NCBI RefSeq assembly: GCF_003201565.1
Contig: NZ_QJJP01000002.1
Span: 1-64,000, forward strand
Source of the DNA: Nitrosomonas sp. Nm84
Lineage (GTDB): Bacteria; Pseudomonadota; Gammaproteobacteria; Burkholderiales; Nitrosomonadaceae
DNA length: 64,000 nucleotides
Reading direction: 5' to 3'
Positions 11,303 to 64,000 of the stretch are shown here, one piece after another. Position numbers and translations under genes: made by a program. Position 1 is the stretch's first letter, and every line of letters begins with the position of its first letter. The notes beneath the pieces are model-generated. The model was given only the letters and a program-made list of their open reading frames with translations. It ran no database searches and had not been told where the DNA came from.

Positions 11303-11515
11303 TTCGATTACCCATCCGATGGTCCTTCAATTTATAGACAGCTCACATCGTTCGCATTTATAAAAAATCAGGAATTACTTTAATCACTCAGAAGTGAACA
11401 TTATTCCTATATTTTTCACTTGACATTGCAAATAATCCACAATCTAGGAAGATTGTGAAAATTATCTCAATCAATCATCCAACGAACCGCGAGTAGGATA
11501 TAACTGACTGATAAG

Positions 11516-11543
11516 TGACACATAATTAAAGTGTCAGCTTTTT
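11516..11543 (+). terminator. Possible terminator of the permease gene
   Basis: TGACAC (11516-11521) pairs with GTGTCA (11531-11536); GC then five T residues follow. The stem is short (6 bp). The equivalent part of the second element copy lacks the left arm. Confidence 0.35.
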
Positions 11544-11598
11544 AAGCAACCTAAGTAAGCCCTTAGAAATACATAGATTAGTTGCATATACCAAACGG

Positions 11599-11633
11599 TT
11601 ATTCACAAACTTATCCACAGGATTTGTGGATAA
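11599..11633 (+). promoter_or_regulatory. Triplet of DnaA boxes (copy 1)
   Basis: TTATTCACA (11599-11607) and TTATCCACA (11611-11619) lie in the same direction 3 bp apart. TGTGGATAA (11625-11633) lies in the opposite direction 5 bp further on. All three fit the DnaA-box consensus TTATNCACA exactly. Confidence 0.8.
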
Positions 11634-11667
11634 CGAAAAAACTTCATGTGAAATAAAACGATAGACC

Positions 11668-23992: not shown

Positions 23993-24111
23993 AAGGTGTT
24001 ATTCGGTGGAGGGTCATTTTAACTGTATTTCTTAGAAATCACATCACACAACTCATAAACTGGATTACAGGAGATCGACGTATCATCTTATTTGTCATAA
24101 GATTTTTATCA

Positions 24112-24146
24112 TTATCCACAATTTCTGTGGATAACTTTGTGAATAA
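24112..24146 (-). promoter_or_regulatory. Triplet of DnaA boxes (copy 2)
   Basis: On the plus strand: TTATCCACA (24112-24120), TGTGGATAA (24126-24134) and TGTGAATAA (24138-24146). All three fit TTATNCACA on one strand or the other. Spacings are 5 and 3 bp, identical to copy 1 when inverted. Confidence 0.8.
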
Positions 24147-24320
24147 CGTTTGTGTTTGAGCCGCTAACTTGTATATTTCTAAGGATTTTTCTTAGGTTGA
24201 TTAATTATTTGACACCTAATTTAGATGTTGTTTATCAATAAGTTGTGTTTTTTGATGGAAGTTGTGCAAATATATTCAAAACAACATTTACATCTTATCT
24301 AAACTGTGGATTGTTTAAAG

Positions 24321-24326
24321 TGTCAA
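24321..24326 (-). promoter_or_regulatory. Perfect -35-like TTGACA in element copy 2
   Basis: TTGACA on the minus strand is followed 17 bp later by TTTAGA, with TAAGAT overlapping. The matching TTGACA in copy 1 is at 11420-11425. If active, it would transcribe across the element towards the cysteine desulfurase gene. Confidence 0.35.
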
Positions 24327-24439
24327 GGAAAAATATTGAATGGACTGTAGAGAATGTGTGCATGAATATAACAAATTACAAACAATCTTTATTGAAATCA
24401 GGGGTGAGAAGTTAAGCATTCAATCTTGTTTTTTAAGAA

Positions 24440-26284
24440 CTAATACTTAGTACCTGCGACAGCTCTATTACGGGAGTGTGTTGCGGCGGCAATTTCAGCG
24501 CGTATTCTTGCAGCGGCCGCGGCGGTTGCTTCCTTGTCAGCCTGAGAACGCGCAAATAGCGCTTCTTTTGCCATGACTTCAACGGCTTCGCGCTCTGTAG
24601 CAGCTTCTAGTGCTTTAGATTCCAGTGCCAAACGTTCCTGCATGGCGACGAGCGCCGCTGATTCAGTTCTGGCTTTTTCTAAAGCGATTTTGGTCGCTGC
24701 TTTTTCTGCTTCAAGCTGGGCTTTAGCCTTGTTGGTGGCAATTATTTTAGCTTGTGCTCTGGTTATTGCCAAGCCGGTAATTTTTTGCTCGATTTCAAGA
24801 CGCTCGGCCACAGCTTGCTTTGCATCAATCATTGCCTTGGCGCGAATTTCCGCATCTTCTAATAAACGTTTTTCCAATTCGGCTTTAGCGTTTGTTTCTT
24901 GTGCGGTGAGCGTATCCATCTGCGCTTTTGCTTCTGCTGTAGTTTTTAATCGTATTTCTGCATCCGCTCTATTTTTGGCAGCATTCTTGGCGGCTACTTC
25001 AGCCTCTGTTCGTGTTTCCGCTTCCTTAATGGCTTTTTCTTCTGCTTTGGCGCGTTTTTGATATTCTTTTGTCGCAGTACTTTCAGTTTTTTTCCTGTCG
25101 TTAGCGATAAGTGTAGCTTCTTTTTCGGCGCATAAAGCTGCTTCAGCAGCAATTGATGCCTCGGCCTCGATTTGCATGCGTTGATTTACTTCTTCAAGCA
25201 ATTCGGATTCCGCGATAAGACGGGTTTTGATGGCATCGGCAGCTGCATTTTCTTTGGCAATGATGGATTCTGCGACTTTCATGGCGACCTGTTCAGCGTC
25301 TGCTCTGTCTCGTGCCGCGATAGTTGCCTGAGCATCCAATTCCGCTCTTTTTCTTGCTTGTTCGGCAGCTATCGTTTCAGCTTCGGCTTTTTCCATTGCG
25401 GCTTGTACAGCAGCGATTTCAACCTGCATTCTATCGTCTTCCGCCGCTTTTGCTTGTATTTCGATATCCAGGCGCCGGGTAGCTTGTGTCAAGGCTTGTG
25501 CTTCTAATTGGGAGCGGGTTTGTGTTTCTTCCAGCACTTGTTTCTCAGTCTCTTCACGTGCTTTAGCCAAGGCAATGATTCTTTGCGATTCTTGAATTTT
25601 TGCCTGCGTGAGCATCAGTGCATTGGTTTCGACTGTAATTGCGGCCAATGCAATCAGTCGAGCTTCTTCGGCTAGTTTGGCGCTGCGTATGGCCGCTTCA
25701 GCTGCTTCATGTTCTTTCAATGCAGTGGCATGAGCCTGGTCTAGAGCAGCAGCTTCTTGTTCAACACGTTTTTGCGTTTTCTCGACGATAGAAGCCTCGG
25801 CTTTAAGTTGGGCTTCCAATAGTGCACTTAAAGCTTTTTCCGCTTTGTATTTTTCGTCTGCGAGTTGCTTGGTTTTGATTTCCAGTTCATAGCGAGCATG
25901 GGCTTCTTGAATTGCAAGTGTTTCCGCTTTTGCTCGAGCCCGAGCTTGCTCGGTTGCAGCTGTTTCAGCCTGAATTCTAGTTTCGGCTGCAATTCTCGCA
26001 TTGGCTTCAGCTCTTGCTCTTGCTTCAGCTGCTACGCGTGCAATGCTTTCTGCTTCAATGCGTTTCTGCGCTTCCTTAATAGCCTGATCTTCTGCACTCA
26101 GACGGTCGCGATAAGCATTTTCAAGTTGCTGCTTGAGATCATGGATGAGCGAAGATTGCTGGTCAGCGTCAAATGCATCGCTGGATTGTGGTTCACTATT
26201 CAACGCGACTATTTCCTTATCATCGTGAGATTCCGACGATGAAATTTTGCGTAGTGAACTGAGTAAGCGCGACTTAAAGGTCAT
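24440..26284 (-). CDS. Long helical protein of 40 tandem 14-residue repeats
   Basis: 614 residues. The first 53 form a polar, Ser/Asp-rich head with no signal peptide. Residues 54-613 divide without any insertion or gap into 40 units of 14 residues. The loose consensus is A-x-x-x-A-x-x-R-x-x-A-E-x-x, with Arg or Lys favoured at position 8 and Glu at 12. One Tyr ends the chain. Fourteen residues equal two heptads, so a continuous coiled coil or long single helix of roughly 80 nm is expected. It is cytoplasmic by lack of any export signal. It stands between flagellar genes and the element copy 2. I do not recognise a characterised homologue; a cytoskeletal or spacer role is speculation. Confidence 0.8.
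   Translation of the reverse strand: MTFKSRLLSSLRKISSSESHDDKEIVALNSEPQSSDAFDADQQSSLIHDLKQQLENAYRDRLSAEDQAIKEAQKRIEAESIARVAAEARARAEANARIAAETRIQAETAATEQARARAKAETLAIQEAHARYELEIKTKQLADEKYKAEKALSALLEAQLKAEASIVEKTQKRVEQEAAALDQAHATALKEHEAAEAAIRSAKLAEEARLIALAAITVETNALMLTQAKIQESQRIIALAKAREETEKQVLEETQTRSQLEAQALTQATRRLDIEIQAKAAEDDRMQVEIAAVQAAMEKAEAETIAAEQARKRAELDAQATIAARDRADAEQVAMKVAESIIAKENAAADAIKTRLIAESELLEEVNQRMQIEAEASIAAEAALCAEKEATLIANDRKKTESTATKEYQKRAKAEEKAIKEAETRTEAEVAAKNAAKNRADAEIRLKTTAEAKAQMDTLTAQETNAKAELEKRLLEDAEIRAKAMIDAKQAVAERLEIEQKITGLAITRAQAKIIATNKAKAQLEAEKAATKIALEKARTESAALVAMQERLALESKALEAATEREAVEVMAKEALFARSQADKEATAAAAARIRAEIAAATHSRNRAVAGTKY
24446..26125 (-). repeat. Forty in-phase 42-bp coding repeats
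   Basis: These encode residues 54-613 of the protein above. The repeats are diverged at DNA level but keep strict 42-bp spacing throughout. Confidence 0.8.
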
Positions 26285-63737: not shown

Positions 63738-64000
63738 ATGCAACAGTTGCTGCTAGACATTAAACCTCTGCCATTCCCTACACTGACAAATTTCCTGCCG
63801 GGGCGCAATACTGAGTTGTTGCACATGCTGACTACTATCCTGTCAGGGCAGGAAAAAGAACACTTTGTTTACCTGTGGGGTGGTTTGGGATGCGGTAAAA
63901 GCCATTTGTTACAGGCAACCGTTGCTGCCTATACCCAAAAAAACCTAAAAGCGGTATATTTCTCCGCCGGGAAACGCTGCGAGTTTTCTGTGGATGGTGA
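63738..64000 (+). CDS. hda: DnaA inactivator Hda, N-terminal part (cut by window end)
   Basis: The ATG at 63738 starts MQQLLLDIKPLPFPTLTNFLPGRNTELL, and the Walker A motif GGLGCGKSHLL follows near residue 52. This is the DnaA-like AAA+ domain of Hda, which with the sliding clamp promotes ATP hydrolysis by DnaA. About 87 residues are visible. It is 39 bp after the transporter gene. Confidence 0.88.
   Translation, partial: MQQLLLDIKPLPFPTLTNFLPGRNTELLHMLTTILSGQEKEHFVYLWGGLGCGKSHLLQATVAAYTQKNLKAVYFSAGKRCEFSVDG

Follow-up and report, generated by a model that had tools for sequence, protein, structure and literature searches.

What is the function of two similar non-coding elements, each with three DnaA boxes, that lie in opposite orientation on one contig of a Nitrosomonas genome? 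The window, that is, the whole stretch of 64,000 nucleotides analysed here, comes from contig C2 of a 3.47-Mb draft genome. It contains a pair of intergenic elements of about 230 bp at 11415-11645 and, inverted, at 24104-24337, which are separated by 12.5 kb and have the three DnaA boxes in common. Each of them is probably a DARS-type site that recharges ADP-DnaA under the control of IHF, a reading based on sequence features and on analogy with Escherichia coli in which we place good, though not full, confidence.

Architecture of the two elements

Single near-matches to the DnaA box numbered 25 in the window compared to 15.8 expected, with at least 25 in 2 of 100 shuffles. Two-box patterns with 3 mismatches occurred 10 times versus 1 per strand in the control, and in another run 6 and 9 times versus 4 and 1. 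Since the counts of single near-boxes were too noisy, arrays with fixed gaps were taken instead. Read from the strand of box I, each copy consists of TTATCCACA - 5 bp - TGTGGATAA - 3 bp - TGTGAATAA, with the following positions:

11415..11645, minus strand in the DARS reading: element copy 1, between an MFS transporter gene and secF
11625..11633, minus strand: DnaA box I of copy 1, TTATCCACA, from the box scan and the alignment of the copies
11611..11619, plus strand: DnaA box II of copy 1, TTATCCACA, head-to-head with box I at a gap of 5 bp
11599..11607, plus strand: DnaA box III of copy 1, TTATTCACA, 3 bp from box II
24104..24337, plus strand in the DARS reading: element copy 2, between a cysteine desulfurase gene and a gene for a 614-aa coiled-coil-like protein
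24112..24120, plus strand: DnaA box I of copy 2, TTATCCACA
24126..24134, minus strand: DnaA box II of copy 2, TTATCCACA
24138..24146, minus strand: DnaA box III of copy 2, TTATTCACA

In a global alignment of copy 1 with copy 2, 167 of 248 columns are identical, at a score of 71.5 compared to a maximum of 9.5 in 300 shuffles, and the best 140 bp of copy 1 show 75% identity to copy 2. The initial annotation had described paired, inverted non-coding elements of about 230 bp with DnaA-box triplets at 3- and 5-bp spacing, and this description is borne out by the alignment. The limits it had given (11410-11640 and 24100-24337) need small corrections, as the similarity begins further left, a few bases left of CTTGACA (ATATTTTTC), and extends about 14 bp rightward beyond the boxes. 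TTGACA and AATCCACA, which it had assigned to one common end, are indeed present in both copies; AATCCACA is located at the far end, inside 11433-11441 (plus strand) and 24305-24313 (minus strand).

Within the diverged middle of the elements, an IHF consensus is conserved, and an A+T-rich block is present as well. The accessory sites, with positions numbered from the first base of box I, are:

11501..11513, minus strand: predicted IHF site of copy 1, TATCAGTCAGTTA, at +120, 0 mismatches to the consensus WATCARNNNNTTR
24233..24245, plus strand: predicted IHF site of copy 2, TATCAATAAGTTG, at +121, 0 mismatches to the consensus
11433..11441, plus strand: distal DnaA box of copy 1, TAATCCACA, 1 mismatch, same direction as boxes II and III
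24305..24313, minus strand: distal DnaA box of copy 2, CAATCCACA, at +193, 2 mismatches
24199..24213, plus strand: Fis-like site of copy 2, GATTAATTATTTGAC, at +87, 2 mismatches to GNTYAAWWWTTRANC
11420..11425, plus strand: conserved TTGACA of copy 1
24321..24326, minus strand: conserved TTGACA of copy 2

At the matching position of copy 1 no Fis-like site was found (4 mismatches). A dyad, GTGACAC-N9-GTGTCA, occupies 11515-11536 of this copy in place of the Fis-like block of the other copies. TTGACA precedes the distal box in full-length Nitrosomonas elements, with no matching -10 hexamer.

Conservation of the core and of the accessory sites

When up to 3 mismatches are allowed in the 27 fixed bases, 83 of the 85 Nitrosomonas genomes contain the core, as do 198 of the 399 genomes drawn from the order, the latter covering 92 of 158 genera; the reversed-pattern control gave 0 in both searches. 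A lack of conservation of the boxes in related strains, named at the outset as the result that would speak against a function, was checked and is contradicted by the count for the genus. Among 84,980 species genomes the exact core was retrieved in 64 stretches assigned by their titles to Nitrosomonas, Gallionellaceae, Sulfuriferula, other betaproteobacteria, many gammaproteobacteria or, more broadly, to Proteobacteria/Pseudomonadota. When the gap between facing perfect boxes was left free from 0 to 30 bp, 94 matches were obtained in 47 of the 85 Nitrosomonas genomes. Among the 75 places listed, the gap was 5 bp in 63, 17 bp in 11 and 7 bp in 1, with the 17-bp class representing box I to box III within one array. 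The facing pair of boxes I and II, set exactly 5 bp apart, belongs to the best-preserved features of the element. A blastn search with the 56 bases around the boxes against 5,426 E. coli genomes gave 8 partial matches, each in a different genome and none covering 80%. In five small E. coli plasmids of about 40 kb (H4-H8), a stretch of 29-30 bases is about 90% identical to the core region.

For the accessory sites, loci were picked by the exact core alone. This gave 66 distinct loci, 63 of them with the full stretch (18 Nitrosomonas, 5 other beta, 40 gamma/other), which were grouped by record title, or by gene or sequence likeness in the case of four loci titled only Proteobacteria (L142, L156, L162, L181). 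The accessory sites keep set distances from the core, with the IHF consensus at +119 to +121. With at most 1 mismatch it is present near +120 in 16 of the 18 Nitrosomonas, all 5 other beta and 27 of the 40 gamma/other loci, and is perfect in 9, 1 and 12 of them, respectively; controls on the opposite side of the core yielded 6/288, 0/74 and 7/628. A distal DnaA box directed like boxes II and III was found in 13/18, 4/5 and 24/40 loci of the same groups (controls: 5/288, 1/74 and 13/628). In the beta groups it is positioned at +191 to +194; the gamma group mostly has it at +202 to +205 (about +203), i.e. roughly one helical turn beyond the beta distal box. The Fis-like 15-mer at +85 to +87 occurs in 17/18, 2/5 and 31/40 loci (controls: 2/288, 0/74 and 6/628). 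With the looser published Fis consensus, Nitrosomonas showed no excess (6 matches versus 5.5 in shuffles) and the gamma group peaked at the Fis-like position, L161 and L162, which are gamma-like in sequence, still being grouped with Nitrosomonas in this count.

At the level of the order, loci retrieved with the loose core were scored at 32 of 33 sites (one stretch was too short), which derive from 30 loci among the 198 matching genomes. The IHF consensus lies at +117 to +123 in 28 of these 32 sites, 22 times without mismatch, compared to a control mean of 1.4%. The distal box was observed with at most 1 mismatch in 14 sites and the Fis-like site in none of the 32. In a set of 80 sites, fetched partly with the whole of copy 1 as query, the IHF site and the distal box occur together in 56 (random positions: 0.17%), so that arm conservation in this set is partly a product of selection, and this applies equally to the set in which TTGACA was seen to be conserved. 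The counts for the 63 exact-core loci and the 32 order sites are free of it.

Genomic setting and core-only copies

Besides the two elements, the following genes and sites are relevant to the discussion:

63780..64000, plus strand, continuing past the window end (C2:63780-64403): hda (DnaA inactivator), over the TIGR03420 cut-off with 235 bits, context only
C22:17398, C29:27053, C5:61773 and C26:22444 (L052-L055): trbN-linked cores, the one on C26 with 5 mismatches
L051:6970, L200:4698, L215 and L218: examples of the site upstream of xseA

The genome also encodes IHF-alpha, over its profile cut-off, and a Fis relative, a 90-aa frame with 40% identity to residues 24-96 of E. coli Fis. The dnaA gene is on contig C6; the gap after it is A+T-rich, has boxes without DARS geometry and is likely oriC. 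The initial statement that the paired elements are not the usual origin fits this location of dnaA on another contig.

Both copies are in place in the sister genome G061, where copy 1 is 88% identical. Five further Nitrosomonas contigs, including one from G061, have the coiled-coil neighbour of copy 2 beside the site, and three of the five also have the desulfurase gene. This neighbour (24440-26284) encodes a 614-aa low-complexity protein that is rich in alanine and glutamate and coiled-coil-like by eye; it has no NCBIfam match and is kept beside copy 2. In other Nitrosomonas genomes, elements are located near queA and an HlyD-family gene, in the same chromosome stretch as the genes of the window.

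A further DARS-type site was encountered upstream of xseA in the 7 Nitrosomonas genomes fetched there, in 13 of the 30 order loci and in the own genome (C15:56969); for the seven, the gene was identified in one genome. It shares the core geometry and an IHF consensus near +120 with the element, and the own-genome site additionally has a Fis-like site and a distal box. It differs in its fixed place and, in Nitrosomonas, in weaker boxes I and III, and no Fis-like site was seen in the order loci read. Distances from dnaA derive from 9 of 13 genomes with a dnaA position. The queA-linked sites are 0.107-0.138 of the genome away from dnaA in five genomes of one or two contigs, whereas the cluster of G042 (89% complete) is found at 0.41. 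The queA gene of G017 lies 3.5 kb from its site, and the queA-linked core of G026 has 4 mismatches. The sites near xseA range from 0.106 to 0.391 (six genomes) and other sites from 0.07 to 0.48. As this spread indicates, the position of the element relative to dnaA is not strictly fixed. At the start of the window, 244-280 gives a single match to the CRISPR repeat family RF01322 with no other family match beside it, either a relic or an array end.

Many scattered copies with decayed boxes had also been named as a finding that would count against the proposal. Conservation was found instead, although decayed copies and copies with nothing but the core were also met, in particular on conjugative elements. 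Four core copies of the own genome follow trbN-family genes (trbN is named on C29, in a Trb conjugation operon), and neither IHF nor distal sites were found in the three Trb-linked copies scored (C5, C22 and C29). A conjugative element may use or titrate the DnaA of its host through a core of DARS geometry. The core, with the third box R-degenerate, was also detected on 13 viral contigs (L252-L264), nine of which have nearly the same core and flank; an IHF site is present on none of the 13. At L050:5770 (C34:15769) boxes I and II are perfect and box III has decayed; 1.3 kb from this site lies a gene that, by eye, resembles one for a sigma factor. Core matches numbered 16 and 18 in G002 and G003.

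Proposed function and comparison with E. coli DARS and datA

From E. coli we infer how DnaA, IHF and Fis could bind to such a site, how ADP could be released and how a loop could form. DnaA would bind the head-to-head boxes I and II, and box III would recruit a further molecule. With the facing ATPase domains in contact, ADP-DnaA would lose its ADP, and the freed DnaA could take up ATP and fire oriC. IHF at +120 would bend the DNA so that the distal box, directed like boxes II and III, reaches the core and tunes the reaction, with the distal box feeding back or stabilising. Where a Fis-like site is present, Fis may assist. Against the DARS reading stand the Fis-like site missing from copy 1 and from all 32 order sites, its location away from the Fis consensus of DARS2, the lack of an excess in Nitrosomonas with the looser Fis consensus, the scarcity of E. 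coli DARS and datA neighbour genes (only nnr) in the short stretches searched, and the 2 mismatches in the distal box of copy 2. A DARS-like role, one of those suggested initially, is nevertheless strongly supported because the core geometry is identical to that of E. coli DARS.

With IHF at +120 as in datA, and not as in DARS2, the arm could serve DnaA inactivation. In such a datA-like site the IHF bend would bring DnaA on the distal box head-to-tail to DnaA on boxes III and II, and ATP would be hydrolysed. We attach a small probability to this alternative, which had been proposed from the beginning. It agrees with the layout of the arm (box, IHF, TTATTCACA), which parallels E. coli datA: co-directional boxes with IHF between two of them occur here in the arm only, as distal box, IHF and box III. 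The essential boxes of datA, however, all have the same direction according to the accessible part of PMC5742627, whereas boxes I and II, the best-kept pair here, are arranged head-to-head with 5 bp between them. The DARS geometry itself fits the datA stretch poorly, with 6 of 24 mismatches at best (overlapping box 2) compared to 2 in DARS1 and 3 in DARS2, and the order sites retain core and IHF, yet the distal box (at most 1 mismatch) in only 14 of 32. Passive titration of DnaA would be in accordance with 3-4 strong boxes within 230 bp and several copies per genome; it would work, however, without a set orientation or helical phase and without an IHF site or a distal box, all of which are kept, and we judge it very unlikely.

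The initially suggested dispersed or mobile repeat, a non-coding sequence carrying DnaA boxes by chance, would explain copies near queA, xseA, the desulfurase gene and the HlyD-family gene, in some cases two or three of them within a few kb, as well as the core-only copies on Trb conjugation operons. The copies in the window have diverged to only 75% identity over the best 140 bp while keeping their boxes, though, synteny across species holds for several loci (G061 has both copies in place, five contigs share copy 2, and the xseA site recurs), and no near-identical copy of either element was found in G000, which makes a repeat highly improbable. Least credible is that the element acts as a further origin of replication, or as a promoter under DnaA control that serves a neighbouring gene or a small RNA and has TTGACA as -35. 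A+T-rich DNA does adjoin the DnaA boxes and TTGACA is conserved, but the region downstream of dnaA on C6 is the likelier oriC, no TATAAT-like hexamer is seen by eye 17 bp from TTGACA, and the neighbours vary between loci. The elements gave no Rfam match at gathering cut-offs, and full CTAAG/CTTAG pairing of an RNA hairpin is kept in 16 of 39 scorable elements, in a crude test with 18 of 57 unscorable. On these grounds we dropped the ideas of a TTGACA promoter, of an RNA hairpin and of an Rfam family. As identities of the element, mobile repeat, oriC and RNA gene fit poorly.

The DARS-type assignment can be compared directly with the two sites of E. coli MG1655, read by coordinate. DARS1, between bioD and uvrB, has the core TTATCCACT-5-TGTGGATAA-3-TGTGTATTA, and DARS2, between rppH and mutH, TTATTCACC-5-TGTGGATAG-3-TGTGAAGAA. 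A placement of DARS2 on the mutH-ygdR side was dropped after the core had been found between rppH and mutH; the DARS2 primer sequences quoted in the accessible text of PMC4585315 fit the latter location. Box order, orientation and the 5- and 3-bp gaps are identical to those of the element. For both E. coli cores, the available portion of PMC5742627 describes box I as opposite to II and III at equal spacing, and excerpts of PMC10380432 call the head-to-head pair of boxes I and II essential for DARS function. Like the element, DARS1 and DARS2 are intergenic and occur more than once per genome, and the DARS2 core is also flanked by IHF-like sites.

Differences concern the boxes, the arm and the surroundings. 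The boxes of the element are closer to consensus than those of E. coli DARS. Its IHF consensus is at +120, whereas the IHF-like sites of DARS2 (1 mismatch) lie at +93, on the opposite strand, and at +109. Its distal box is co-directional at +192/+193, compared to TTATCCACA at +211 on the opposite strand in DARS2. The Fis consensus of DARS2 lies at +145, whereas the Fis-like site of the element is elsewhere (+87 in copy 2). In DARS2, a 5-bp displacement of the IHF or Fis site was worse than a 10-bp one in 2 of 3 shifts, as given in the accessible part of PMC4245941, which fits a tolerance of one-turn shifts. The neighbour genes differ from those of E. coli DARS. When the short stretches around 94 loci were searched for neighbours of E. 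coli DARS1, DARS2 and datA, only nnr was found, in L177. There, on a Nitrosomonas contig, an nnr relative with 36% identity over 499 aa is about 1.3 kb from the element at L177:3967; nnr of E. coli is a near neighbour of datA, with queG in between.

The DARS and datA work found is on E. coli and near relatives. The available portion of PMC5742627 states that the spacings of core, IHF and Fis sites in DARS2 are kept in beta- or gammaproteobacteria close to E. coli, and the 2014 paper (PMC4245941) describes, in its accessible part, conservation of DARS2 in gamma species related to E. coli. On DARS-like sequences in other proteobacteria, the excerpts of two reviews (PMC10380432, PMC5742627) state only that they occur. 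A search for literature on DARS outside E. coli, in Betaproteobacteria or in Nitrosomonas revealed no title on the element, with most subscription journals outside its range. While the conserved spacings of DARS2 near E. coli are already known, the surprising part is the composite arm. The precise, alignable architecture, which includes an IHF consensus and a fourth box in phase, extends across beta- and gammaproteobacteria and is found in slow-growing ammonia oxidisers, so that it becomes testable in non-pathogens how the ADP/ATP-DnaA cycle arose and what logic it follows.

For the comparison with datA, TTATTCACA on the plus strand was placed at 0. E. coli datA then has TTATCCACA (plus) at -162, the IHF site TATCAATAGGTTA (minus) at -97, TTATTCACA (plus) at 0 and an inverted box at +12. 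In the same frame, the copies in the window show a box (plus) at -166/-167, the perfect IHF consensus (minus) at -98/-99, TTATTCACA (plus) at 0, box II (plus) at +12 and box I (minus) at +26. Distal box, IHF site and TTATTCACA are thus alike in order and orientation; the IHF-to-box distance is equal within 2 bp and the distal distance within 5 bp. At +12, in contrast, the inverted box of datA is replaced by the co-directional box II, and datA is without box I and hence without the head-to-head pair at 5 bp. From its sequence, the element looks like a DARS core joined to a datA-like arm, with box III shared. It is conceivable, although we regard it as speculative and unlikely, that this 230-bp combination of DARS core and datA-like IHF loop around a shared box III is an ancestral DnaA switch of beta- and gammaproteobacteria that works both ways. 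The state of the IHF loop would choose between ADP release and ATP hydrolysis, and datA and DARS2 of E. coli would each descend from this switch with one half kept. If this held true, the 'on' and 'off' sites of E. coli would share one ancestor.
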